From assembly GCA_937141935.1 (NCBI GenBank), contig CAKZQS010000027.1, positions 22,384-86,383 of the forward strand: a stretch of 64,000 nucleotides of DNA. Direction: 5' to 3'. Source of the stretch: an uncultured Ectothiorhodospiraceae bacterium (lineage in GTDB: Bacteria; Pseudomonadota; Gammaproteobacteria; Nevskiales; Oceanococcaceae). The notes below the pieces were generated by a model. It was not told the origin of the DNA and searched no databases. It worked only from the letters and a program-made list of their open reading frames with translations. Of this stretch, positions 7,915 to 49,589 are shown one piece after another. The translations under genes and the position numbers were made by a program. Position 1 is the stretch's first letter. Each line of letters opens with the position of its first letter.

Positions 7915-8912
7915 GCCACGATCTGCTCAGCCAGGACGAAATCGACGCCCTGCTGGATGGCGTCGGTAACGGCGAGGTCGAAACCCAGGACGAGCCGCCG
8001 GAGAAAGGCGCCGTACGCAACTGGAACTTCGGCTCGCAGGATCGCATCGTGCGCGGCCGGCTGCCCTCGCTGGAAATGGTCGGCGAGCGTTTCGCCCGCC
8101 AGTTCCGGGTCACGCTGTTCAACATCCTGCGGCGCAATCCCGAGATCGCCTTTGCCGGGCTGGAGACGCTGAAGTACAGCGACTACATGCACCGGCTCTA
8201 TGTGCCGACCAACCTGAATCTGATTCGGGCCAAGCCGCTGCGCGGCACCGCGCTGCTGCTGATCGAACCCAAGCTGGTCTTTGGCGTGGTCGACCGCTTT
8301 TTTGGCGGCGATGGTCGCTTCAACGCACGCATCGAAGGCCGCGAGTTCACGCCCACCGAGATGCGCGTGATCCGCATCCTGATCGACGCCGCCTTCGGCG
8401 ACCTGAAGGAGGCCTGGTCGCCGGTGATGGACCTGGACTTCGAATACGTCCAGTCCGAGCTGAACCCGCACCTGGCGACCATCGTCAGCCCCTCCGAAAT
8501 CGTGGTCGTGTCGCGCTTTACGGTCGACCTGGAGGGCGCCGGCGGCGAGATCCACCTGACGCTGCCCTACGCGATGATCGAGCCGATCCGCGAGCAGCTG
8601 TCGAACGGCATCCAGAGCGACCGCACCGACCGTGACGAGCGCTGGATCCACAACCTGCGCGACCACGTCAGCGCCTCCGAGGTGGAGCTGCGCGGCGTGC
8701 TGGCCGAGCCTCGCATCACGCTGGCCGAGCTGCTGTCGCTGAGCGCCGAGGACGTCATCCCCATCGCCTGGCCGCCCAAGGTCGAGCTGCGGGTCGAGAA
8801 CGTGACCCGCTTCGCCGGCCAGTTCGGCGTATCGGGCGGCCGTAACGCTGTCCGCATCAATCGCATTGTCGGCCCGGACACCGAGCCGAAAACCCCACGG
8901 AGTGCCGCATGA
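7911..8912 (+). CDS. fliM: FliM, flagellar motor switch protein
   Basis: FliM forms the middle of the C ring and binds CheY-phosphate. The N-terminal CheY-binding peptide is clear: LLSQDEIDALLDG at residues 4–16. The middle domain has the GGDGRF-type loop (RFFGGDGRFNARIEGREFT), which contacts FliG. The C-terminal SpoA domain contains VELRGVLAEPRITLAELLSL. At 333 residues it is of normal length. It overlaps both neighbours by four bases. Confidence 0.97.
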   Translation: MSHDLLSQDEIDALLDGVGNGEVETQDEPPEKGAVRNWNFGSQDRIVRGRLPSLEMVGERFARQFRVTLFNILRRNPEIAFAGLETLKYSDYMHRLYVPTNLNLIRAKPLRGTALLLIEPKLVFGVVDRFFGGDGRFNARIEGREFTPTEMRVIRILIDAAFGDLKEAWSPVMDLDFEYVQSELNPHLATIVSPSEIVVVSRFTVDLEGAGGEIHLTLPYAMIEPIREQLSNGIQSDRTDRDERWIHNLRDHVSASEVELRGVLAEPRITLAELLSLSAEDVIPIAWPPKVELRVENVTRFAGQFGVSGGRNAVRINRIVGPDTEPKTPRSAA

Positions 8913-9337
8913 GCAACGACGCCAGCCCCCAAACCCCGGCCAGCGCCGAGTCCGCCCCGGCGACGAGCCAAGCCGCGGCTCAGGCCCAGTACGCGCCGCC
9001 CGAGTTCCCCAGCGTTGGCGAACCCGAGGAGCCGGCCGCGGCCGCCGCCACGCCGGCGCCGGCCGGCGACGGCAACGTCAATCTGGATCTGATTCTGGAC
9101 GTCCCGATCACGCTGTCCATGGAGGTCGGCCGGACCCGGGTGCCGATCCGCAACCTGCTGCAGCTGAACCCCGGCTCGGTGGTCGAGCTGGACCGCATCG
9201 CCGGCCAGCCGCTGGACGTGTACGTCAACGGCACTCTGATCGCGCATGGCGAGGTCGTGGTGGTCAACGAAAAATTCGGCGTGCGCCTGATCGACGTGGT
9301 CAGCCCGGCCGAGCGCATCCGCAAGCTGCAGGCATGA
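8909..9337 (+). CDS. fliN: FliN, flagellar motor switch protein
   Basis: FliN forms the bottom of the C ring and is the docking site for FliH/FliI. The 142-residue protein has an Ala/Pro-rich disordered N-terminus of about 50 residues, then the SpoA domain: DLILDVPITLSMEVGRTRVP, LLQLNPGSVVELDRIAGQPL, VYVNGTLIAHGEVVVVNEKF and GVRLIDVVSPAERI. These are all standard FliN sequence. It overlaps fliM and fliO by four bases each. Confidence 0.97.
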   Translation: MSNDASPQTPASAESAPATSQAAAQAQYAPPEFPSVGEPEEPAAAAATPAPAGDGNVNLDLILDVPITLSMEVGRTRVPIRNLLQLNPGSVVELDRIAGQPLDVYVNGTLIAHGEVVVVNEKFGVRLIDVVSPAERIRKLQA

Positions 9338-9645: not shown

Positions 9646-10463
9646 CCCGCGCCTGGCGTCGCCTGCGGGCCGGGCTGCTGCTGTGCCTGTGCCTGCCGGC
9701 GCTGGCGCTGGCGCAGCCGGCCGATACGTCGCCGCCGCCGCCCGCCAACCCGCCCGCGCTGACGGCCGAGCCGCTGGCCCTGGCCGGGCCCGGGCTGCCG
9801 GCGGTGACCGTGGTGGAAAGCGCCGATGGCGGCGAGACCTACACGCTGACGCTGCAGCTGCTGATCGCGCTGACGCTGCTGACGATGCTGCCGGCGGTGG
9901 TGCTGCTGACCACGGCCTTCACCCGCATCATCGTCGTGCTGGGCCTGCTGCGGCATGCGCTGGGCACCGGCCAGACGCCCTCGAACCAGGTCCTGCTGGG
10001 GCTGGCCCTGATGCTGGCCGCCTTCGTGATGCGTCCGGTGCTCGATCAGATCCACAGCGAGGCCTGGCAGCCCTACAGTGAGGGCCGCATGTCCGCCGGG
10101 GATGCGGTGCAAACGGCGCTGGTGCCACTGCGCGGCTTCATGCTGGCGCAAACCCGCGAGTCCAGCCTGCAAAGCCTGGCCGAGATCGCCGGCGATGGCC
10201 CCTATGCCGGGCCCGAGGCCGTGCCACTCACGGTGCTGGTGCCGGCCTTCGTGCTCAGCGAGCTGACCACGGCCTTTCAGATCGGATTCATGCTTTTCAT
10301 TCCCTTCGTCGTCATCGACCTGGTCGTGGCCTCGGTGCTGATGTCGATGGGGATGATGATGCTCTCGCCCATGCTGGTCTCCCTGCCGATGAAGATCATG
10401 CTGTTCGTCCTGGTGGACGGCTGGGCCCTGCTCGTCGGCAGCCTCGCGGAGAGCTTCCGATGA
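9642..10463 (+). CDS. fliP: FliP, flagellar export-gate protein
   Basis: FliP is the main pore subunit of the FliP5Q4R1 export gate. The GTG at 9642, overlapping the fliO stop, gives 273 residues with a cleavable signal sequence (LRAGLLLCLCLPALALAQ), which FliP normally has. The mature protein shows the first membrane helix with VVLLTTAFTRIIVVLGLLRHALG, the QTPSNQVLLGLAL motif, and the last helices with MMMLSPMLVSLPMKIMLFVL. It overlaps fliQ by four bases. Confidence 0.96.
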   Translation: MTRAWRRLRAGLLLCLCLPALALAQPADTSPPPPANPPALTAEPLALAGPGLPAVTVVESADGGETYTLTLQLLIALTLLTMLPAVVLLTTAFTRIIVVLGLLRHALGTGQTPSNQVLLGLALMLAAFVMRPVLDQIHSEAWQPYSEGRMSAGDAVQTALVPLRGFMLAQTRESSLQSLAEIAGDGPYAGPEAVPLTVLVPAFVLSELTTAFQIGFMLFIPFVVIDLVVASVLMSMGMMMLSPMLVSLPMKIMLFVLVDGWALLVGSLAESFR

Positions 10464-10729
10464 CGATTGCCGACGTGACCGATTTGATGCGCCAGGCGCT
10501 GACGCTGACCACGCTGGTCTCGGCACCGCTGCTGATCGTGGCGCTGGCGGTGGGCCTGATTGTCGGCCTGTTCCAGGCCGCCACCCAGGTCAACGAGATG
10601 ACGCTGAGCTTCATCCCCAAGCTGTTGGCGATGGGCGCGGTGATGCTGGTGGCCGGCGGCTGGATGCTGGCCCACATGGTCGGCTTCACCCGCCAGCTGA
10701 TTCTCGACCTGCCCATCCTGATCGGCTGA
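10460..10729 (+). CDS. fliQ: FliQ, flagellar export-gate protein
   Basis: FliQ is the small two-helix subunit that closes the export gate. The 89-residue product has two membrane helices (LLIVALAVGLIVGLFQAATQ and LLAMGAVMLVAGGWMLAHMV) joined by the conserved VNEMTLSFIPK loop. The first residue after its stop begins the fliR region (one-base gap). Confidence 0.97.
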   Translation: MTIADVTDLMRQALTLTTLVSAPLLIVALAVGLIVGLFQAATQVNEMTLSFIPKLLAMGAVMLVAGGWMLAHMVGFTRQLILDLPILIG

Positions 10730-10730
10730 T

Positions 10731-11501
10731 ATGCCGGCGGCGCCGCTGCTGCTGGGCTTCGAGGAGCTGCTGACGGCGCTGTGGCTGTCGCTGCGCGTGG
10801 GCGGCATGTGGGTGGCGATCCCGGTCTTTGGCAGCGCGGTGCTGCCGGCGCGGCTGCGCGTGCTGCTGATCGTGGCCACGACCGTGTTGCTGGCCATCAC
10901 GCTGCACGAGCGGCTGCCCATCCCCGAGCCCAGCACGCCGGCCTTCTGGGTCGGCGCGGTGCGCGAGATTCTGATTGGCCTGATGCTGGGTTTCACGCTG
11001 CGGCTGGCCTTCGAGGCCATGCTGCTGGCGGCCGAGCTGATCAGCCTGGCGATGGGCCTGGGCTTCGCCCAGCTCAACGACCCGCTGCGCGGCACCTCGG
11101 CCCCGGTGCTGGGGCAGCTCTTCTCGGTGGCGACCACGCTGGTGTTCCTGACACTGGAGGGCCACCTGCGGCTGCTGGAGTGGCTGCTGTGGAGCTACGT
11201 CGGCCCCGATCAGTCCGGGCTGGCCGACGACCTGCTCGGCGGCACGCTGGCCTGGTCGGGCTTTGTCTTCACCCATGCCGTGCAGGTGGCCATGCCGGCC
11301 CTGTTCGCGCTGCTGCTGGTGAACCTGGGCTTTGGCGTCATCAGCCGCTCGGCGCCCAGCCTGAACCTGCTGGCCGTGGGTTTCCCCGCGGCGCTCCTGA
11401 TCGGCATCCTGCTGCTATTGCTGCTGGTGCCGGCCATCGTCGAGGGCGCCGAGCTGGCCATCGCGGCCGGCCTGGCGCTGGTCGAGTCGGTGCTGGGCTA
11501 G
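10731..11501 (+). CDS. fliR: FliR, flagellar export-gate protein
   Basis: FliR is the single-copy gate subunit that joins FliP and contacts FlhB. The 256-residue protein has about six hydrophobic helices and the characteristic segments ILIGLMLGFTLRLAFEAML, AELISLAMGLGFAQLNDP and LLLVNLGFGVISRSAPSLNL. The ATG follows the fliQ stop by one base, and flhB starts nine bases after its stop. Confidence 0.96.
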   Translation: MPAAPLLLGFEELLTALWLSLRVGGMWVAIPVFGSAVLPARLRVLLIVATTVLLAITLHERLPIPEPSTPAFWVGAVREILIGLMLGFTLRLAFEAMLLAAELISLAMGLGFAQLNDPLRGTSAPVLGQLFSVATTLVFLTLEGHLRLLEWLLWSYVGPDQSGLADDLLGGTLAWSGFVFTHAVQVAMPALFALLLVNLGFGVISRSAPSLNLLAVGFPAALLIGILLLLLLVPAIVEGAELAIAAGLALVESVLG

Positions 11502-11510
11502 GGCGGGGCG

Positions 11511-12659
11511 ATGAGCGGCAAGGACGACAGCGCCCAGAAAACCGAAGACCCCACCCCGCGACGCATACGCGAACAACGGGAGAAGGGGCAGGTTCCGCGC
11601 TCGCGCGAGCTGGGCAGCTTCGCGGTGACCGGGGCCAGCGTGCTGGGGCTGCTGCTGGCCGGCGCCGGCATGCTGCGGGCCCTGACCGAGGATCTGCGCG
11701 CCGCGCTGCGCTTTGATGCCGATGACCTACAGCGCGCCAACCTGGGCCTGGAACTGGGCCGCGGGCTGGCCGAGGGGCTGACCTGGATGCTGCCGCTGCT
11801 GATCGCCACGATCATCGGGGCCATTGTCGGCACGCTGGGCGTCGGCGGCTGGAACTTCTCGACCAAGGCCTGGGTGCCGGACTTCAGCCGCCTGAACCCG
11901 CTGGAAGGCTTCAAGCGCATGGTGTCCTGGCAGGGCCTGTCGGAGCTGCTCAAGGGCCTGGCCAAGTTCGGCCTGCTGGGCGCCCTGCTGTGTGCGGTGC
12001 TGTGGACCAGCCGCGACGAAATTCTGGCGCTGGGGCGCATGAGCTGGCCGACCGCCACCGGCTTCGGGGCGCGCGTCATTTTGCTGACGCTGGCGCTGCT
12101 GACCCTGGGCCTGCTGGTCATCGCGCTGATCGATGCGCCCTTCCAGATGTGGCAGTACCGCGAGCGGCTGAAGATGAGCCTGCACGAGGTGCGCGAAGAG
12201 CTCAAGGACAGCGAGGGCCGGCCCGAGGTCAAGCAGCAGATTCGCGCCCAGCAGCAGGCGCTGTCGCGGCGGCGTTTGCGCGAGGCGGTGCCGCAGGCCG
12301 ATGTGGTCATCACCAACCCGCGGCATTACGCGGTAGCACTGCGCTACGAGGCCGACAGCATGGCCGCGCCGGTGCTGCTGGCCAAGGGCACCGGGCCCGA
12401 GGCTGCGCTGATCCGCGAACTGGCGACGGAGCACCAGATTCCGCTGGTCGAGGCGCCGCCGCTGGCGCGGGCGCTGTACCGCCACGTGGCCGAAACCGCC
12501 GCCGTGCCGGCCGCGCTGTACCTGGCCGTGGCCCAGGTGCTCAGCTATGTCTACCAGCTGCGCCAGCTGGCCGAGGCGCCGCCGCAGGCGAGCCTGGCCA
12601 CGCCCACGCCGCCCAGCCCCGACGTGCCGGAAGACTGGCGCTGGGACCCGGCTGACTAG
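11511..12659 (+). CDS. flhB: FlhB, export-gate substrate-specificity switch protein, NPRH variant
   Basis: FlhB has four membrane helices and a cytoplasmic domain that cuts itself between Asn and Pro of an NPTH motif, switching export from hook to filament proteins. The 382-residue protein starts with the usual TEDPTPRRIREQREKGQVPRS. The cytoplasmic linker MSLHEVREELKDSEGRPEVK is standard. The cleavage motif reads NPRH (codons aac ccg cgg cat near 12315), so the scissile Asn-Pro and the His are kept but Thr is replaced by Arg. The rest of the domain (YAVALRYEADSMAAPVLLAK) is normal. Confidence 0.96.
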   Translation: MSGKDDSAQKTEDPTPRRIREQREKGQVPRSRELGSFAVTGASVLGLLLAGAGMLRALTEDLRAALRFDADDLQRANLGLELGRGLAEGLTWMLPLLIATIIGAIVGTLGVGGWNFSTKAWVPDFSRLNPLEGFKRMVSWQGLSELLKGLAKFGLLGALLCAVLWTSRDEILALGRMSWPTATGFGARVILLTLALLTLGLLVIALIDAPFQMWQYRERLKMSLHEVREELKDSEGRPEVKQQIRAQQQALSRRRLREAVPQADVVITNPRHYAVALRYEADSMAAPVLLAKGTGPEAALIRELATEHQIPLVEAPPLARALYRHVAETAAVPAALYLAVAQVLSYVYQLRQLAEAPPQASLATPTPPSPDVPEDWRWDPAD

Positions 12660-12739: not shown

Positions 12740-14812
12740 ATGCCCACGACTGCTGCCCTGCGCCCCGGCGCCGCCCAAGCCCTGTGGCAGGGCCTGGCCC
12801 GCGGCAACCTCGGCGCGCCGCTGCTGCTGCTGCTGATCATCGGAATGATGGTGGTGCCACTGGCCCCGGTGGCGCTGGACCTGTTGTTCACCTTCAACAT
12901 CGCGCTGTCGGTCGCGATCCTGCTGGCGGTGGTTTACGCGCTGCGGCCGCTGGACCTCACCGCCTTCCCGACAATCCTGCTGGTGGTCACGCTGCTGCGC
13001 CTGGCGCTGAACGTGGCCAGTACGCGGGTAGTGCTGCTGAACGGCCACGAGGGCGGCGACGCGGCCGGCAAGGTCATCGAGGCCTTCGGCGCCTTCGTGA
13101 TCGGCGGCAACTACGCCGTGGGCATCGTGGTCTTCGTGATCCTGACGATCATCAATTTCGTCGTGGTCACCAAGGGCGCCGAGCGGATCTCCGAGGTCAG
13201 CGCGCGCTTCACCCTCGACGCCATGCCCGGCAAGCAGATGGCCATTGATGCCGACCTCGGCGCGGGCCTGATGGATGCCGACGCCGCCCGTGCCAAGCGG
13301 GCCGAGGTGTCGCAGGAGGCCGACTTCTACGGCTCGATGGACGGCGCCTCGAAGTTCGTGCGCGGCGACGCCATTGCCGGCCTGCTGATCCTGTTCATCA
13401 ACCTGATCGGCGGGCTGTGCATCGGCATGCTGCAGCACGGGCTGGATGCCGGCACCGCCGCCGCCAATTATTCGCTGCTGACCATCGGCGATGGCCTGGT
13501 GGCGCAGATCCCGGCGCTGCTGCTGTCGATCGCCGTGGCCATCCTGGTCACGCGCATGTCCAGCTCGCAGGACATGAGCCGCACCGTGGCCAGCCAGCTC
13601 TTCGCCGCGCCGCAGGCGCTGGCCGTCACCGCCGGCATCCTCGGCATCATCGGCATGATCCCGGGCATGCCCAACCTGGCCTTTCTGCTGCTGGCGGGCC
13701 TGGCCGGCTTTGGCGCCTGGTGGCTGCGTGGCAAGCAGCAGCGCGCCGCCGCGGCCCCGGAGGAGGACAGCGCCCCGGCGCCGACGCCGGTGGCCGAACT
13801 GGGCTGGGACGACGTGCCGGTGGACGAGCCGCTGGCGCTGGAGCTGGGCTACCGCCTGATTCCCATCGTCGACGAAGGGCAGGGCGGGCAGCTGCTGGGC
13901 CGGGTCAAGGGCATCCGCCGCAAGCTGACCCAGGAGCTGGGCTTTCTGATCCCGGCGGTGCACATCCGCGACGACCTGGAGCTGGCGCCCACGGCCTATC
14001 GCATCCGCATCTTCGGCACCACGGTGGGCGAGGGCGAGGTGCGCCCGGGCATGGAGCTGGCGCTGGCCAGCGGCGAAACCACGCAGCGCCTGCCGGGCAC
14101 GCCCACGCGCGACCCGGTCTTTGGCCTGGATGCCTGGTGGGTGCTGCCCGAGCAGCGCGACACGGCGATGAGCAGCGGCCACACCGTCGTGGATGTGGCC
14201 ACGATCATCGCCACGCATCTGTCGCATGCGGTATCGGCGCACGCGCCGGAGCTGCTCGGCCACGAGGAGGTCGAGCGCCTGGTCGAAAGGCTGGCGCAGC
14301 AGGCGCCCCGCCTTGTCGAAGGCTTGACGCCCAAGCCGCTGCCCACGGCGGTACTGGTGCGCGTGCTGCGCAACCTGCTGGCCGAAAACGTGCCGCTGCG
14401 CAACATGCGCTCGATTGCCGAAAGCCTGGCCGCCGCGGCGCCGCACACGCAGGACCCGGAGGCCCTCACGGCCCACCTGCGCCGCGACCTGGGTCGCCAG
14501 ATCACGCAATCGGTGCGCGGCGCCACCGAGGAATTGCCGGTCATCACGCTGGACCCGGGCCTCGAGCGCACGCTGCTCGAAGCCAGCCAGTCGGATGCCG
14601 TCGACCCCGGCCTGATGTCTTCGCTGCAGCAGCGTTTGCTTGCTGAGGCACGCAATCTGCAAAGCCGGGGAGAGCCCGTGGCCCTGCTCGTGCAAGGCCG
14701 CTTGCGGCGACTGCTGGCGCGACTGCTGCGCAGCGGCGTTCCCGGGCTGCAGGTGTTGGCCTATGACGAGATTCCGGACAACCAGAGACTGCGGGTGGTG
14801 ACCACGCTATGA
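12740..14812 (+). CDS. flhA: FlhA, flagellar export-gate protein
   Basis: FlhA is the large ring-forming gate component that uses the proton motive force and docks export chaperones. The ATG at 12740 gives 690 residues, the usual size. About eight membrane helices fill the first half. The highly conserved cytoplasmic FHIPEP loop is represented by the region after ISEVSARFTLDAMPGKQMAI and DADLGAGLMDADAARAKR. The C-terminal domain includes LGYRLIPIVDEGQGGQLL and the chaperone-docking region. The stop overlaps flhF by four bases. Confidence 0.97.
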   Translation: MPTTAALRPGAAQALWQGLARGNLGAPLLLLLIIGMMVVPLAPVALDLLFTFNIALSVAILLAVVYALRPLDLTAFPTILLVVTLLRLALNVASTRVVLLNGHEGGDAAGKVIEAFGAFVIGGNYAVGIVVFVILTIINFVVVTKGAERISEVSARFTLDAMPGKQMAIDADLGAGLMDADAARAKRAEVSQEADFYGSMDGASKFVRGDAIAGLLILFINLIGGLCIGMLQHGLDAGTAAANYSLLTIGDGLVAQIPALLLSIAVAILVTRMSSSQDMSRTVASQLFAAPQALAVTAGILGIIGMIPGMPNLAFLLLAGLAGFGAWWLRGKQQRAAAAPEEDSAPAPTPVAELGWDDVPVDEPLALELGYRLIPIVDEGQGGQLLGRVKGIRRKLTQELGFLIPAVHIRDDLELAPTAYRIRIFGTTVGEGEVRPGMELALASGETTQRLPGTPTRDPVFGLDAWWVLPEQRDTAMSSGHTVVDVATIIATHLSHAVSAHAPELLGHEEVERLVERLAQQAPRLVEGLTPKPLPTAVLVRVLRNLLAENVPLRNMRSIAESLAAAAPHTQDPEALTAHLRRDLGRQITQSVRGATEELPVITLDPGLERTLLEASQSDAVDPGLMSSLQQRLLAEARNLQSRGEPVALLVQGRLRRLLARLLRSGVPGLQVLAYDEIPDNQRLRVVTTL

Positions 14813-42520: not shown

Positions 42521-42862
42521 CGTTACAGGGTGTGTCTCCGAAGACCCCTGATTGTACGGATGACGGGGGGAAGGGGCTGGCATGTCAGCGTTGGCTAGGC
42601 GTTTGCACGGCGCGGCCCCGGCCGCTATAACGAAGCGTAGAAGGACAGCCCCGTAGAGGGCGCGGAGGGGACACTATGCGGCGCGCCTCAACGCCTTACA
42701 CGTTCGCACGGCCAACGCCGGTGCCGCTTGGCGCAGCGGCGGGGAGGCGCGCTTCGAGCGGCCTCAAGTGCGCTTTAACGCTGGTCATACGCGGCGCGGC
42801 TGGAATGCTGCGTCGCGGTGTTATGCGTCGCGGGCGACGCAGAATTTGGCGCTGGGCCGCCG
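42521..42862. other. intergenic region at the left edge of the foreign island
   Basis: About 340 bases lie between icmF and the first island gene. I see no convincing gene. The stretch has several short GC-rich inverted repeats and the words CTCAACGCC and TTTAACGCTGG, which loosely resemble parts of attC sites. A full attC site could not be put together, and no integrase gene lies here. Confidence 0.5.
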
Positions 42863-43417
42863 GTGAACTACGTCGTGAACGTCGGCTTTCCTAATCTGCT
42901 TCGTGACGCCATCTGGCACACGACTCACCCAGACCGGTGGAACGCAATTTGTAGGTGTGGGGAAATCCTGCCCAATCCAGACATTCCCGACACTGAAAGA
43001 TGGAAAACCAATCGTGGGCCTGACTATTTCCCTTTTGTGCGGCACATCGACGGAATTAGTCTGTTCGATTTCCATGGATTCGACCCGTTGGAGTATTCCG
43101 AAGGTTACCCTTTGTCGAGTTGGCGAACATTTGTGCCGGTGCACCGAGGGTGGCCTGCTGCTATTTGGCTGAAGGTCGACACGTCTCTGGCTAACGGCCA
43201 ATTCCTTTCGCCCAAGGAACTCTCAGAGCGGCAACATGCTGAGGGCGCGCACCGGCATTCCCTCATGCCTCGAATTGAAGCTGCCGTGGTCGGCACTATT
43301 CCGATTGAGGCGGTAGTCGCTGCGTACCGCATAAACTATGGAAGCGCGGATTTTGAAGCGATTGAGAATCAAGGTTGGCGCGTCGCCGCGCAACAAATCG
43401 CTGCGGTGGACAAGTGA
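42863..43417 (+). CDS. unknown island protein, possible cassette-encoded
   Basis: I do not recognise the family. The GTG at 42863 gives 184 residues; an earlier GTG at 42818 adds 15 residues of poor sense. The protein has no membrane helix or signal. The N-terminal part reads AIWHTTHPDRWNAICRCGE, and further on come VPVHRGWPAAIWLKVD and RIEAAVVGTIPIEAVVAAYR. That layout loosely resembles ADP-ribosyltransferase-like toxins of the RES/DarT kind (His near the start, strand before the end), but this is a guess. Its codon use is less GC-biased than the flanks. It is followed by an attC-like half site. Confidence 0.6.
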   Translation: MNYVVNVGFPNLLRDAIWHTTHPDRWNAICRCGEILPNPDIPDTERWKTNRGPDYFPFVRHIDGISLFDFHGFDPLEYSEGYPLSSWRTFVPVHRGWPAAIWLKVDTSLANGQFLSPKELSERQHAEGAHRHSLMPRIEAAVVGTIPIEAVVAAYRINYGSADFEAIENQGWRVAAQQIAAVDK

Positions 43418-43460
43418 CCCGCCAGCCAATTCTGCTGCCGCAAAATCGCCTGTCGCCTCA

Positions 43461-43486
43461 AACGCCGCTGAGCCCAGGCGTTAGAA
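43461..43486 (+). other. attC-like right half before the SIR2 gene
   Basis: GCTGAGCCCAGGCGTTAGAA (43467–43486) agrees at 15 of 20 positions, by my count from memory, with the right half of aadA-type attC sites (GCTTAACTCAAGCGTTAGAT). It ends in the core GTTAGAA; the consensus is GTTRRRY, so the last base is off. AACGCC (43461–43466) and GGCGTT (43477–43482) form an inverted repeat. The SIR2 gene starts 25 bases later, as expected for an integron cassette. Confidence 0.45.
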
Positions 43487-43511
43487 CCCTGATTTAACAT
43501 AGAGAGAACAA

Positions 43512-45947
43512 GTGAGCATAAACATAGGCGACGTTGCGTCGGCGATCGACCCCAAAAGCACCGTGCTGTTTTTCGGGGCGGGTTCTTCCATTCCGTCTGG
43601 AGCCCCTAGTGTTGAGAGCTTGATGGGTTCAATCTCCGAGTCCTTCTCTATCCCATGTGACGGCTATACGCTAAGTGAGCTCGCTGGTGTGGTGGAAATG
43701 AAGAGGGGCAGGCGACCGCTTATTGAGCATTTAAGAAAGAGGCTCCAGAAAGTCCAGCCTACTGGGAGTCTTCTGAACTTCCCCCTCTACGAATGGAAGA
43801 GCATTTACACAACGAATTACGACAGATTGATAGAAGACGCGTATGCCAGCGCTGAAGTGGATATCACGCAAGTTTCGTCAAACTTCGATTTCCAAATAAG
43901 CAAAAACCCAGATGCAATAAAGCTGTTCAAAGTTCATGGCACGATTGAAAAAGATGAAATTGATGGGGTTCACAGCCGTATAATCCTGTCGGACAATGAC
44001 TATGACCTTACAAGCGAATATAGAGAAACGCTTTATGACAGCCTCAGAAACGACCTCGGGCAATCTGATCTTGTAATAATCGGGTACTCATTGTCTGATC
44101 CACATATCAGAGACATCGTGAATCGTGCGCTTGACATCCACACAAAATGTGCCGGCGCAAGGTCGATCTACCTGATTCTCTATACCGAAGATGAAAACAG
44201 GGCGTTGCTTCACGAACGCCGGGGGGTGAAGGTTGCGTTCGGCGGCATCGATCAGTTTGTCGTCGCTCTGCAGGAGCGCATCGATCCACGTGTACAAGCG
44301 TCTGTAAACGTAAACGATCCGTTGGAAGTATCTCCACGCCTGAGGCCGATGACCATCGATGTGTCGCATGAAATTACAAATAGCACAAAAGATGCGAGTG
44401 CCATGTTTAATGGCTGGCCAGCATCCTATGCGGACATCAAGGCCGGGCTTACTTTTCAGCGAAGCTGTTGTCCCAACATTTACGAGTCCTTGAACAGCGG
44501 GAACAAACACGCGGTTGTTCTGCTGGGTCCGAGCGGCATCGGCAAGACCACTCTGGCCAAACAAGTGCTGCTGCGCTTTTCGGATTCTGGCTGGTCATGT
44601 TGGCAACACAAGGAAGACCATACCCTTCTGGCGGATGATTGGTTAAAGGTTGCGAAAAAGCTTCAGGCAGAGGGGCAATCCGGCATTCTTTTTTTAGATG
44701 ACGCACATTTGCACCTTTACGGTTTAAACATCCTGGCTGATTCGTTGCATTCAGAAGGAATCTTAAACCTTAGAATATTCGCAATCTCCTCCCGAAACAT
44801 GTGGAACCCGCGCGTCAAGTCTTCCGTGTTTTTCAAGTCAGGCGAGCAACTTCATATAAAAAGGCTTGACTCCGCCGAGGTAGAGTCGTTGCTGAACCTT
44901 GTTGACTCATCGTCAGACCTAAAACCATTGGTGGAGAATAGTTTTTCTGGTTTTTCTCGGGCGGAAAGGAAGCGCCGTTTAACGGTTCGGTGCGAGTCCG
45001 ATACATTCGTGTGTCTAAAAAATGTTTTTGGATCGGAGAAATTTGATGACATCATTCTTCGAGAATTCGCAAGCCTTGATGGCGATCTGCAGGAAATTTA
45101 TAAAATCGTTGCTGCGATGGAGAGTGCGGGAATCAACGTACATCGTCAGCTGGTCGTTAGGGTCCTCGGCATTGATGCCAACAGCATTGCCTCAATTCTA
45201 GATAAGCTCACTGACATTATCCGCGAACATACAGTTAGCGAAAGACAGGGTATCTATGGATGGAAAGGACGTCATTCCGTGATCATGGATATTGTTGCCA
45301 AGTATAAGATGACGGACTTGGATAAATACAGAAAGCTGTTTGAAGAGGTCATCGAAAACGTCGTTCCAACATATGACATTGAGATTCGGACAATACGACA
45401 AATGTGTGGGTTTGACACGGGCATAAGCCGATTTCCAGATAAACATGTCAGAAACAAACTGCTTCGCCGCATGATTTCAAAGGTTCCTGGCGAGCGGATT
45501 CCTCGGCACAGGTTGATCCGAAACCTAATAGACATCAACGAAATGGAGAAGGCTGAAACTGAAATCCGGTTGTTTGAGAATGATTTTCGTACAGACGGCC
45601 CTGTGCACCGATATAAGGTCATGCTATTGATTGCAAGAGCTGAGAGAACGCCCGGTCTCATGGACGAAGATAGGCTTGCCATTCTCCAACAAGCCCATGG
45701 TCTCGCAGTGAATGGTTGTGATAGGTTCTCGGATAATAAGGATATGCTTCGAATCTACTGTGACGTAGGCATGGAGATCTTCAAGCGTACGGGGGAAATG
45801 ACCGTCTTAGATCAAGCGTTAGATAAGGTGAAGGCTGCCGAAGAGCGCGTTGGGGACCCGGAGCTTACAAACATAATCAACTTCTACCAGCGCATGGTCA
45901 CGGGCCGGCAGGTTGCAGACAGTAATGATCAGCGCGACGGGGCCTAA
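43512..45947 (+). CDS. SIR2–P-loop NTPase (STAND-like) probable anti-phage defence protein
   Basis: The GTG start gives 811 residues. The N-terminal SIR2-like NADase domain (about 1–250) has VLFFGAGSSIPSGAPS, TTNYD with Asn102, KVHG with His142 and VIIGYSLSDPHI. Next is a P-loop ATPase with GPSGIGKTT at 339–347 and ILFLDD at 392–397, followed by a long helical region as in STAND sensors. Proteins with this order (Avs5-type, DSR-type) kill phage-infected cells by removing NAD+. The C-terminal half has no family I can name. Codon use is much richer in A/T than in the flanking genes, so it came by transfer. Confidence 0.88.
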   Translation: MSINIGDVASAIDPKSTVLFFGAGSSIPSGAPSVESLMGSISESFSIPCDGYTLSELAGVVEMKRGRRPLIEHLRKRLQKVQPTGSLLNFPLYEWKSIYTTNYDRLIEDAYASAEVDITQVSSNFDFQISKNPDAIKLFKVHGTIEKDEIDGVHSRIILSDNDYDLTSEYRETLYDSLRNDLGQSDLVIIGYSLSDPHIRDIVNRALDIHTKCAGARSIYLILYTEDENRALLHERRGVKVAFGGIDQFVVALQERIDPRVQASVNVNDPLEVSPRLRPMTIDVSHEITNSTKDASAMFNGWPASYADIKAGLTFQRSCCPNIYESLNSGNKHAVVLLGPSGIGKTTLAKQVLLRFSDSGWSCWQHKEDHTLLADDWLKVAKKLQAEGQSGILFLDDAHLHLYGLNILADSLHSEGILNLRIFAISSRNMWNPRVKSSVFFKSGEQLHIKRLDSAEVESLLNLVDSSSDLKPLVENSFSGFSRAERKRRLTVRCESDTFVCLKNVFGSEKFDDIILREFASLDGDLQEIYKIVAAMESAGINVHRQLVVRVLGIDANSIASILDKLTDIIREHTVSERQGIYGWKGRHSVIMDIVAKYKMTDLDKYRKLFEEVIENVVPTYDIEIRTIRQMCGFDTGISRFPDKHVRNKLLRRMISKVPGERIPRHRLIRNLIDINEMEKAETEIRLFENDFRTDGPVHRYKVMLLIARAERTPGLMDEDRLAILQQAHGLAVNGCDRFSDNKDMLRIYCDVGMEIFKRTGEMTVLDQALDKVKAAEERVGDPELTNIINFYQRMVTGRQVADSNDQRDGA

Positions 45948-45964
45948 CCGCTCGGGTCCAACTG
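45942..45964 (+). other. attC-like left half at the end of the SIR2 gene
   Basis: GCCTAAC at 45942–45948 is the attC R'' core (RYYYAAC) and contains the SIR2 stop codon TAA, as is common in cassettes. Then CGCTCGGGTCCAACTG follows to 45964. It compares with GCCTAACAATTCGTTCAAGC, the classic attC left half. The site then runs into decayed IS3 sequence, so the right half is missing. Confidence 0.45.
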
Positions 45965-46039
45965 CATACAGTTGCCGAGGCGCTCCCCATACACCCGTTC
46001 ATGCCGTACGCAGGCGTCGAGACTCTCTGGAGGGTCGAA

Positions 46040-46650
46040 TTCGGGTGTTGAAGCGCGGGGAAGCGAGCGACACGGCCCCGCGTGAAAATTCGCGCGCTCA
46101 GGAGCTGGAAGTGGAGGTCCAGCGCCTGAAGAGGGAGAATGCCTTTCTAATAACGTGGCCATGGTTCGTACCGGAACAACGGCTGAGCGCTATGCGTTCA
46201 TCGCCGGTCACAGATCGGAATTCCCGCAGAAGTATCTGTGCGTGTCCCTGCTGGCTTCGTGGAAAGGTTGTTACGCTGGCCTGCCTCGACGCCAGCAAGA
46301 GACGACAGCGACCTGCTGACGCAGATGGAAGAGATCTACATCGAGTGCGAAGCGCGCCGCGGCAGCCCACGTGCGCCAGATCCTGCGAGAACAGCGGATG
46401 GGCGGACCGCGAGCACTTATCACAACTGATACTGCGGGGGCGGCTAAGGGCGCTCAGTACGCGGTGGTCTCGGCGGGACGCTCTCGGACCTTCTCGCGGC
46501 GTTGCGGGGATACCGGGCTGGCGGATGGCGCGGGTTATGTCTATTCGGCCCAACGAACAGCCGGTCGGCGACATTACCTGTATCCGCCCTGTTGGCCGAT
46601 TGGCCAATCACAGCTCCCTCACAGGCTCGTATCCCCTCTTCTCTTTCGAA
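46040..46650 (+). pseudogene. decayed IS3-family transposase (orfA end and orfB fragments)
   Basis: Fragments in different frames match IS3-type transposase genes. At about 46075–46150 there is the orfA end (RENSRAQELEVEVQRLKREN). At about 46185–46315 orfB begins (ERYAFIAGHRSEFPQK, then LLASWKGCYAGL). At about 46290–46380 a further piece reads DLLTQMEEIYIECEARRGSPR in another frame. At about 46535–46600 RPNEQPVGDITCI corresponds to the usual DITYI of the DDE catalytic region. At least two frameshifts and stops are present, so it is inactive. No terminal repeats were found. Confidence 0.75.
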
Positions 46651-46705
46651 TCGGGCTTGGGCTCCTAGCGATTCGTAGGTTAGGTACGGGGCCCCTTGGA
46701 GCGCA

Positions 46706-48949
46706 GTGTTGTCGATGAAAGATGCAACGATTGCCGTGTCTGGCGTTCACAGCGATCCTGATCCGTCGCCTGGGATAGGCGTTGCCCGCTCATTGCGCGA
46801 GGCTTTCCCGGAGGCCGCGCTCTATGCCGTCGACTACGATGTGCGAAGTAGCGGCTTGCACCATCCTGTATTCGACTCGTTGTTGGTGCAGCCCGTATGG
46901 TCGGAACTCGACCTGGAGACCTACTCGCTACAGATTCTCCAACATCTGGACCAGCCTGCTGGGTGCTGGATCTCGGGCCTTGACGTCGAATCAGAGTGGT
47001 TGGCTGAGGTTGCGCGCGAACACCCACGGCTGCTTGTTCCGAGCACGGCCGCACAGGCGTCGGTCAGAAAGCCCGTTCTTTCGTGTGCGCCATCCCTTGG
47101 GATGACTGTGCCGGAGTTCTTGCCTGCTTCTTCCGCGCCGACAGATCTCCATGCGTTGGGGCGCCGTAGTGGATGGAATCTTTGGGTGAAGGGCAAGTAC
47201 CACGAGGCTTACCGAGCGAATGGCTTCGCCGATTTATGGCGTCAGATCGGCGCACTCGCGCTCCACTGGCCTCGCGAGGATCTCTTCGTCCAGAAGCACG
47301 TCACAGGTCTGGAGCGATCAATTGTTTTCGCGGCGTACAAAGGCAGGCTCCTCGGTGCCGTTGAGGTCGAAAAGCGAAGCGTCACGTCGCAGGGAAAAAC
47401 GTGGGCGGCATCCGTCACCGCCGCGCCAACGGACATTGCTGAACGCCTTGCGCATCTTGTTGCCGAATTCCGCTGGACCGGTGGCGGTGAGGTGGAGTTC
47501 GTTCGGGATTCCGGAGGTCGTGATTGGCTTATCGATCTAAACCCCAGATTTCCAGCCTACATCTATGGAGTGACGCTTTGCGGCCATAATCTGCCGGCCT
47601 GTCTGGTCGGTGCGGCCCTTGGCCTCGAGCATTCTCCAGGGCATGGGTCGGCCAAGCAGTTCATCCGAGTTGTTCAAGAACTGCCAGTACGTGAGGATCA
47701 TCCGCTCCCAAAGATGGTTCAGTCGGATGCTGCTTTCCCATCGGCTGGCAAGCACCCTTCATTTCAGCCACAACTTGTCCGGCGATTAAGGAAGCGCGAA
47801 CGGGACGCGATAGTCCTACCGAAACCATCTCCGGTAGCTCTCCCAGGATTCCTCAAACGGTGGCAATCGCCCGTGCACACCCCGCTTAGATTCCGCGACT
47901 TCGAAGCGGCTGACACGATTCTAAATGAGTTAGAGAAAAGTCTTGCGCAATGTTCGATCCGGCCAGCGGTCACCCCGGCTTTGAGCGTGAAGACGGACCC
48001 GCACCCCGCTCTCGCCCGTTCGTTTCTTCAGCGCGGGTGGTGGGCTGAAGTCATAAGCCTTCGCGAGCTGGAGTGGGCGCTACGCTTGGGATTCAATGCG
48101 TCCTCAATCGTGTTCAACGGCCCTAGAGCCGCAGAATTGACAGCCTACCGAGGTCAGCCAGTCGCAGTTGCATTCGCTGATTCTGTGGAGGCCCTGGAGT
48201 CATTGATGGCGACTGATCGCTGTGACGCCGTAGGGCTTCGCGTGCGACCTAATGCTGCCACATCAAGATTTGGGATCGACTTCTCGGACTATCGTATCTT
48301 CGACCGGGTAGCGAACGGCCTGGCGCGCTTTCGAGATGGCAGGCCGCTCGGTATTCACATGCACTTCGCTAGTGATGTACTGGGATTCGCGCAATGGCAA
48401 GACTTGGTTGAGCACACGCTCGCTTGGGGAGGCGCGTTGGCTCAGGCATCGGGTGCTGATTACTCGATTTTCGATCTCGGAGGTGGTTGGTATTCCGACG
48501 ATTTCTTGGAACAGTTACTACCGAATCTTCCAGCGCTTCAGGCCCGCATTGAGTTAACGCTACCGGGCGTCGAGAAAATCCTTCTCGAGCCAGGAAAGGC
48601 AGTGGCATCGGAAACCGCATGGCTCGCAACGAGAGTGTTGGAGGTGAGAACACGCCACGCAGATTGCGATAGCGAAGTCGTTGTAGATGCTTCGATTGCA
48701 GACCTCCCGATGGCGGCTGATTATGCGCATCGAGTGCTGCACCTTCGGGACGATACCGTCCTGGGCTGGTTGACTGGCGGCCAGCAGCGGATTCTAGGCT
48801 CCATTTGTATGGAGACGGACGTCCTTGCAAACGGCGTCGCTTTCCCCAAGCCGGTTGCTGCAGGCGACGTTCTGCTCTTTTCTGCGGCAGGCGGGTACAA
48901 CGCGAGCATGGCGTGGCACTTCGCATCCGGGGTGGGTCGTGATACCTGA
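46706..48949 (+). CDS. ATP-grasp / PLP-dependent decarboxylase fusion protein
   Basis: The GTG at 46706 follows TTGGAG; the ATG at 46715 is an alternative. Of 747 residues, about 1–330 is an ATP-grasp ligase: VQKHVTGLERSIVFAA, GGGEVEFVRDSGGRDWLIDL and NPRFPAYIYG. About 415–747 is a fold-III PLP decarboxylase like diaminopimelate or ornithine decarboxylase, with PLP Lys429 (LSVKTDPHP), VGLRVRPNA, FDLGGGW, LEPGKAV and SICMETD with the catalytic Cys. Ligases of this group join a carboxylate to an amine. The fused pair therefore suggests making or decarboxylating a peptide-like metabolite. Substrates are unknown. The next gene overlaps it. Confidence 0.85.
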   Translation: MLSMKDATIAVSGVHSDPDPSPGIGVARSLREAFPEAALYAVDYDVRSSGLHHPVFDSLLVQPVWSELDLETYSLQILQHLDQPAGCWISGLDVESEWLAEVAREHPRLLVPSTAAQASVRKPVLSCAPSLGMTVPEFLPASSAPTDLHALGRRSGWNLWVKGKYHEAYRANGFADLWRQIGALALHWPREDLFVQKHVTGLERSIVFAAYKGRLLGAVEVEKRSVTSQGKTWAASVTAAPTDIAERLAHLVAEFRWTGGGEVEFVRDSGGRDWLIDLNPRFPAYIYGVTLCGHNLPACLVGAALGLEHSPGHGSAKQFIRVVQELPVREDHPLPKMVQSDAAFPSAGKHPSFQPQLVRRLRKRERDAIVLPKPSPVALPGFLKRWQSPVHTPLRFRDFEAADTILNELEKSLAQCSIRPAVTPALSVKTDPHPALARSFLQRGWWAEVISLRELEWALRLGFNASSIVFNGPRAAELTAYRGQPVAVAFADSVEALESLMATDRCDAVGLRVRPNAATSRFGIDFSDYRIFDRVANGLARFRDGRPLGIHMHFASDVLGFAQWQDLVEHTLAWGGALAQASGADYSIFDLGGGWYSDDFLEQLLPNLPALQARIELTLPGVEKILLEPGKAVASETAWLATRVLEVRTRHADCDSEVVVDASIADLPMAADYAHRVLHLRDDTVLGWLTGGQQRILGSICMETDVLANGVAFPKPVAAGDVLLFSAAGGYNASMAWHFASGVGRDT

Positions 48950-49589
48950 GGCGGCATTCAACCGGATATCCCAATACCTCGCGTCGCCATCTATGATCAA
49001 TGATCACGGGTCGCTTTGTTGTCGTCGCGCTCGCGCGTGGCTCCAGGGCACAGACTTTAGTATGAGCTATCGTCACGGCCACTCGCACCCGCCATCGTGG
49101 GTTCGAAGACGGTACGAATGGGGGCCAGTGACTTGGCCCATTTACTGGTGCTCCATTCCCGAGATGGCGAAGCTCGACTGCGGAGCACTAAGCGCTGTCG
49201 CGATTGAGATCTATCGAATGCGTAGAACCCGCGTGGCCGCGGTACAACTTGCCCTCCGCTACCCCCGACACGCGACCGAGCAGTGGTCGCGTATGTGGGA
49301 GCGGGGGGGCAATGTGGCTGCCTGGATACATGGTGAGTTCTGCTATCACGAAGCATGTGGGGTTATCGACGGGGCGACACTTGAAGTGTGGGACCCGACC
49401 GAGAACAGATGGCTCAGCCCGCCATCCTCACTGCAGAGCGGCTACGCGTCCGTCTTGGCAATCAGAATTGCGGATTTCGCCGTCATCGAGAGGACAATGC
49501 TTACTTGGGGTGGCCTGAGGCTTCGCGCCGGCATTTGGCAACGATTCGAAATTGACGCGAAAGGAGACCTAAAGGCTCTAGGATGCTGA
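48939..49589 (+). CDS. unknown protein with a possible Cys-His-Asp triad, partner of the fusion enzyme
   Basis: The GTG at 48939 overlaps the end of the previous gene by 11 bases, so both are probably made from one message. The 216-residue protein matches no family I can name. It shows KLDCGALSAVA (Cys81), YHEACGV (His137) and VWDPTENRW (Asp152), in the order and spacing of transglutaminase/papain-like cysteine enzymes. If so it could ligate, cleave or transfer the product of the ATP-grasp enzyme. There is no signal peptide or membrane helix. Confidence 0.6.
   Translation: MIPEAAFNRISQYLASPSMINDHGSLCCRRARAWLQGTDFSMSYRHGHSHPPSWVRRRYEWGPVTWPIYWCSIPEMAKLDCGALSAVAIEIYRMRRTRVAAVQLALRYPRHATEQWSRMWERGGNVAAWIHGEFCYHEACGVIDGATLEVWDPTENRWLSPPSSLQSGYASVLAIRIADFAVIERTMLTWGGLRLRAGIWQRFEIDAKGDLKALGC

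Follow-up and report, generated by a model that had tools for sequence, protein, structure and literature searches.

A candidate Avs5-like SIR2-STAND sensor gene beside an attC-type site in an uncultured gammaproteobacterium

What does a low-GC gene lying directly behind an integron-type recombination site in GC-rich DNA encode, and how might it have come to be there? We addressed this question in a 64,000-nucleotide stretch of contig from an uncultured gammaproteobacterium, hereafter the window. Our comparative analysis leads us to propose, with a probability of about 0.7, that the SIR2-STAND-TPR-like protein encoded after the attC-type site is an Avs5-like sensor that would destroy NAD+ upon phage infection.

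A low-GC gene for a SIR2-STAND protein

The earlier note had pointed to a low-GC gene in GC-rich DNA, and the figures agree. The gene has a GC content of 48.2%, against 67.4% in the flanking IcmF gene (left), 71.7% in the flanking PSD gene (right) and about 70% in the contig. The gene and the parts of its product are located as follows.

43512..45947, + strand: SIR2-STAND-TPR gene, 811 aa, GTG start (ORF list, Pfam, protein search, structure model)
43512..44285, + strand: SIR2 domain, residues 1-258; Asn102 codon 43815-43817, His142 codon 43935-43937
44406..44861, + strand: STAND NTPase core, residues 299-450 (nSTAND5 299-432); Walker A 44526-44549, Walker B 44685-44702
44874..45944, + strand: C-terminal half, residues 455-811, with a winged-helix-like part and a predicted TPR-like superhelix (separate model, matches to SAMD9 and EfAvs5)

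The complete SIR2 active site and the P-loop ATPase claimed in the earlier note are both there. The SIR2 motifs GAGSS (22-26), TTNYD (100-104, with Asn102), KVHG (with His142) and GYSLSDPH (191-198) are present, as are the ATPase motifs GPSGIGKTT (339-347, with Lys345) and ILFLDD (392-397). Three Pfam families score above their cut-offs: SIR2_2 (1.1e-25), nSTAND5 (4.2e-13) and nSTAND3 (3.1e-8). Moreover, Gly22, Gly24, Asn102, His142, Asp196, Lys345, Asp396 and Arg434 are invariant in all 35 aligned family members, and His142 aligns with His146 of KomC, which is mutated in the structure of KomC(H146N). Residues 1-260 contain only two cysteines, Cys49 and Cys213. Hence, the zinc-binding cysteine tetrad of deacetylases is absent, and a classical sirtuin deacetylase was ruled out. 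Judged from the sequences, the invariant catalytic residues and the missing zinc site support NAD+ hydrolysis as the probable activity, as in Avs5, ThsA, DSR2 and KomC.

A protein search returned 470 homologous clusters at E<=1e-3, and the best 120 of them are 735-831 aa long and all carry SIR2_2 and nSTAND5. Close relatives (P0002-P0005) reach 82-90% identity. The sources named among the family include Pseudomonas, Vibrio, Halomonas, Microbulbifer, Methylophaga, Desulfogranum and Shinella. A genome scan found 47 loci, of which 39 are members (L006-L044, 43-60% identity) and eight are partial matches only, at 24-32% identity. Members belong mostly to Pseudomonadota, and some lie on MAG contigs from other phyla. 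The presence of the family is rare, patchy and sporadic. With the window's own genome counted each time, strong matches occur in 2 of 61 genomes of relatives, in 1 of 369 at class level and in 2 of 398 at phylum level; four more relatives' genomes have a weak match of about 200 residues. Within its own genome, the protein has only one second match, a weak one of 53 residues. Viral contigs, scanned with the single protein, held no close relative, and no phage matched at 1e-5. A two-gene system was also considered and rejected, as no partner recurs beside the gene among the ORFs listed for the 39 loci. A family copy on a Pseudomonas plasmid (L003, 12010-14175) is probably broken, since it is annotated as two CDS; a second Pseudomonas plasmid is annotated likewise.

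Downstream of the gene, positions 45983-46705 of the window are decayed and by eye resemble an IS3-type remnant. A plasmid DNA search with stretches downstream (including this one) and upstream of the gene gave no match. The decayed sequence is followed by a 747-aa ORF (46706-48949) that joins an ATP-grasp-like stretch, below the Pfam cut-off, to a PLP-dependent decarboxylase of the diaminopimelate/ornithine type, and then by a 254-aa ORF (48825-49589) for which no family match was found. These two ORFs, which share the low-GC stretch with the SIR2-STAND gene, possibly belong to a small pathway for a natural product or an amino acid. In the same-genus genome G001 we found no IcmF match, and window positions 34.4-50.3 kb showed no colinear match to a 19-kb G001 stretch; therefore, there is no clean empty site.

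Resemblance to Avs5 and the C-terminal half

The SIR2-STAND protein has the architectural features of Avs5. Like EfAvs5 (PDB 9jap), the AVAST5 filament (9nc9) and PaAvs5-1 to -3, it carries SIR2, STAND and a C-terminal helical repeat in this order and at a similar length. Its N-terminal SIR2 domain (PF13289) has the catalytic Asn and His, nSTAND3 is present (33.9 bits against a cut-off of 27.2), and the whole-length predicted fold appears to match that of solved Avs5. The best PDB match of the full-length model is EfAvs5 (8.3e-21), and the AVAST5 filament comes next. The domains are placed differently in the model and in the filament, as shown by the rmsd of 26.6 when the whole model is aligned to EfAvs5. 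The full profile aligns residues 65-534 to 9jap (3.3e-14) in an alignment led by SIR2, residues 245-811 alone retrieved no solved Avs5 at E<=10, and PADLOC gave no Avs5-named model among the best 25 of 37 matches. The earlier note had considered 811 residues short for an Avs protein. This was mistaken: the EfAvs5 chain has 869 aa, and the residue numbers of PaAvs5-1 reach 828 in those parts of PMC12931631 that mention them.

Some features set the window protein apart. Unlike in Avs5, nSTAND5 (49.8 bits) outscores nSTAND3, and a canonical HG is found where PaAvs5-1 has NG. DSR2, ThsA and KomC have the SIR2 fold and the catalytic Asn and His in common with the window protein; unlike them, it has no SLOG-type or DSR2-type remainder, and their models match its SIR2 part only. 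Two of these systems were rejected as assignments. The Dsr2 model scores 17.5 bits against a cut-off of 1400, over residues 58-164 only, and the best model of ThsA (Thoeris) covers residues 6-224, corresponding to model positions 11-224 of 478. The profile and structure comparison proposed at the outset speaks for an Avs5-like fold and against membership of DSR2, and on the whole the interpretation in the earlier note finds partial support.

About 400 residues had been left unassigned, with the suggestion that they might be a new sensor. They have indeed no sequence match to a solved protein; their predicted fold is less novel, as it resembles SAMD9 and EfAvs5. These two were the best PDB matches when the C-terminal half was modelled alone (pLDDT 88.6). 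SAMD9 is a human antiviral STAND protein, and the match of folds is accompanied by about 9% identity and a length of over 1,000 residues in the human protein. From the models, the C-terminal half is likely to be the sensor of the SIR2-STAND protein. As a query, residues 455-811 retrieved 857 proteins, and the best 120 show the same STAND domain or, in two short ones, none. The idea of a sensor common to other effectors was rejected, because no other effector domain appeared in the precomputed Pfam annotation of these best 120.

Mean pairwise identity within the family is 50% in SIR2, 34% in the linker, 46% in the NTPase, 60% in residues 451-600 and 51% in residues 601-811. Since the sensor half is about as conserved as the effector, these alignments suggest a conserved ligand. 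For Avs5, parts of PMC12931631 describe four clades with 18-21% identity between them and a poorly conserved, diversifying C-terminus. The conserved C-terminal half and the integron context of the window protein's family differ from this; only the ranking within each set is comparable, because the Avs5 study spans clades of about 20% identity.

The attC-type site and cassette-like relatives

The boundaries of the gene are marked by the following features.

42818..43417, + strand: 199-aa ORF that ends within the attC-type site, likely the adjacent cassette gene; its true start is uncertain
43386..43488, + strand: attC-type site directly upstream of the gene; R'' GCGCAAC 43388-43394, R' GTTAGAA 43480-43486 (genome copies, stem-loop, covariance model)
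45942..45948, + strand: GCCTAAC, R''-type motif around the TAA stop codon, where the attC belonging to the gene itself likely begins (sequence)
45949..45982, + strand: stem-loop after the stop codon, CTCGG..CCGAG (sequence, fold)

The consensus ends of attC sites are RYYYAAC and GTTRRRY. Seven further copies of most of the 111 bases around the 5' junction of the gene are found in the genome, on contigs C10, C20, C4 and C5. The eight aligned copies form an imperfect stem-loop in which 9 of 27 predicted pairs have both partners changed in one or more copies, and they span RYYYAAC-like to GTTRRRY-like ends, most clearly in the window, C10b, C10c and C5. With a covariance model, 12 sites on five contigs scored at least 43 bits; eight of these sites, the window copy included, had served to train it. 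An intact integron integrase is encoded on C13 (473 bits), and C5 carries one that is broken into two frames. The window's contig has only one full attC-type site and none of the nine integrase matches. Cassette arrays in this genome are scattered over several contig ends, with attC-type sites on C10, C20, C4 and C5, and the ORFs next to the C10 sites encode, among other products, a D12-class methyltransferase and a Swt1-like HEPN protein.

In the window, the start codon lies 25 bases after R' and the gene is in cassette orientation. At the 3' end, no recognisable R' follows the stem-loop, so the attC of the gene itself is incomplete; this stem-loop has no second copy in the genome. A generic attC scan of the window reported one site, inside the gene (44471-44605), missed the upstream attC and reported no 3' attC. 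The 199-aa ORF, likely the upstream cassette gene, is without Pfam, PADLOC or NCBIfam match, and stretches 31-43% identical to it are found on Tritonibacter, Sulfitobacter and Providencia plasmids. Because of the spacing between R' and the start codon, the stop codon in GCCTAAC and the upstream ORF that ends in the attC-type site, the window copy looks like a cassette with an incomplete 3' site, away from the other arrays of the genome.

A relative with cassette-like boundaries is found in Billgrantia bachuensis DX6 (L007). There the gene is flanked by attC on both sides in an array of four attC-type sites (8884-8965, 9887-9970, 12425-12512 and 13530-13601), the third of which has one base changed in R'. 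When the 22-kb loci of L007 and of Marinobacter (L008) were compared, a single common block emerged (9964-12477, 91.5%). Its first base is the G of GTTAGGA, which is the point expected for the crossover of a cassette. Apparently, this relative has passed from one bacterial family to another in the form of an integron cassette. The attC stretches flanking the L007 gene recur at 85-87% identity on Pseudoalteromonas, Marinobacter and Halomonas plasmids (six matches listed). Altogether, parts of the L007 query are matched by 24 plasmid records, of which the two from Pseudomonas match via the SIR2 gene instead.

A stop codon overlapping the start of attC is the typical form of a cassette. As in the window, the stop codon lies inside an attC-type motif in L007, L008, L009, L013 and L036, and in all of these except L009 the motif is fully complementary to the upstream GTTA motif, which holds for 2 of 377 background ORFs. 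The stop lies in such a motif in 6 of 39 family loci and in 7 of 405 other ORFs (one-sided Fisher p 3.4e-4, to be read as post hoc because the motif at the boundary had caught the eye before it was counted). A first count had given 6 of 40 loci and 7 of 377 ORFs, before L023, a near-copy of L041, was dropped; three of the seven background ORFs are other genes of the L007 locus. The motif is absent in 33 of the 39 loci, and also in two further members outside the 39 (L072 and L118). Model R1, run on 41 sources in which relatives occur, gave no attC of the window's class with E under 0.5, and therefore any attC sites in those sources would belong to other classes. The generic attC scan of six loci found three sites in L007, one in L009 and three in L036, those of the latter two off the gene boundaries, and none that passed in L008 or L013. 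IntI scored over the cut-off in 7 of 20 family genomes searched, and in none of the genomes of L007, L009 and L013. On the tree, the integron label of the six loci needs at least five changes, and 91 of 500 shuffles were as low; hence, no single origin is claimed. Part of the movement of this family from one bacterium to another thus apparently takes place as an integron gene cassette.

Defence genes are found near several cassette-type copies: AbiTii at L007, PD-T7-3 at L013 (second gene upstream) and PDC-S06 at L036 (next gene). At L007 (6397-15647), a NERD-domain protein, AbiTii, the SIR2-STAND gene, a 315-aa ORF, a kinase-like ORF and a PLD-like ORF stand in a row and form a compact group of likely defence genes. 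PADLOC at 1e-15 matched restriction-modification enzymes, PDC-S06, PDC-S10 and Tmn (among the best 25 of 87 families) in 123 neighbouring ORFs from 35 loci, a count of defence content made without a control set. Three of these ORFs match Resolvase and three Phage_integrase, and other members lie on conjugative plasmids. Integron defence cassettes (Darracq 2025; Getz 2025; Kieffer 2025; cited in parts of PMC12444791 and PMC12753305) likewise carry defence genes between attC sites. The gene described here may differ from those cassettes as a 2.4-kb STAND (NLR-like) gene, and none of the titles among the listed matches in open-licence literature concerns an NLR-like, AVAST or SIR2 integron cassette.

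Mode of action, rival readings and implications

We envisage that the C-terminal half and the ATPase lid would keep the protein off, and that an infection-linked protein would bind the TPR-like superhelix. ATP-bound STAND domains would then assemble, much as Avs5 forms filaments, and assembly would bring the SIR2 domains together. Asn102 and His142 would hydrolyse NAD+ to ADP-ribose and nicotinamide, and the loss of NAD+ would stop phage growth. In this scheme we infer the phage trigger, the assembly and the NADase activity, as well as any present mobility of the window copy. In Avs5, SIR2 and Walker mutants lose defence and infection lowers NAD+, according to parts of PMC12931631.

The same SIR2-STAND machine might respond not to lytic phages but to plasmids or other mobile elements that enter the cell, and thereby serve competition between elements. 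The members on conjugative plasmids and those beside integrases or resolvases would fit such a role, and a conserved sensor could suit a conserved plasmid factor. However, the nearest solved relatives of known role, Avs5 and DSR2, respond to phage proteins, as parts of PMC12931631 report, and phage-defence genes occur among the neighbours; we consider a plasmid trigger improbable. Even less probable, in our opinion, is a regulator of the cell's own physiology with a host ligand and no role in defence. Such a ligand would equally suit the highly conserved C-terminal half, but the rare and patchy presence of the family, the foreign GC content of the gene, the mobile contexts, the lack of a recurring partner gene among the ORFs listed and the missing zinc tetrad all argue against it.

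A different doubt concerns the position of the gene, which may be an ordinary island gene beside a relict attC that never moved into the window site as a cassette. This would agree with the single full attC-type site on the contig, the lack of a complete 3' attC, the placement of all nine integrase matches on other contigs and the decayed sequence downstream. Yet two features resemble those of a cassette, the distance of 25 bases between R' and the start codon and the position of the stop codon within GCCTAAC, and five relatives have the same stop arrangement, one of them inside an array. We therefore regard the island gene as unlikely, though a serious contender, and retain the reading of a probable Avs5-like NAD+-destroying sensor that probably came as a cassette.

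Avs proteins are bacterial counterparts of the NLR immune receptors of plants and animals. To our knowledge, how large NLR-like receptors spread is not well known. What is added here is a well-defined SIR2-STAND subfamily with a conserved sensor half that in part appears to travel as integron cassettes, and cassette transfer is likely one way in which such immune genes spread. More tentatively, and at somewhat less than even odds, the family may represent an integron-mobilised branch of NLR-like immunity: a one-gene SIR2-STAND alarm whose sensor, conserved and not diversifying, would perceive one widespread infection signal, and which could pass from host to host as a finished gene cassette alongside other defence cassettes. 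If a 2.4-kb NLR-like gene does move as a cassette, the repertoire shuffled by integrons would extend to immune receptors, and further receptors could be sought in cassette arrays. The conservation of the C-terminal half also hints at a conserved trigger that is directly testable.
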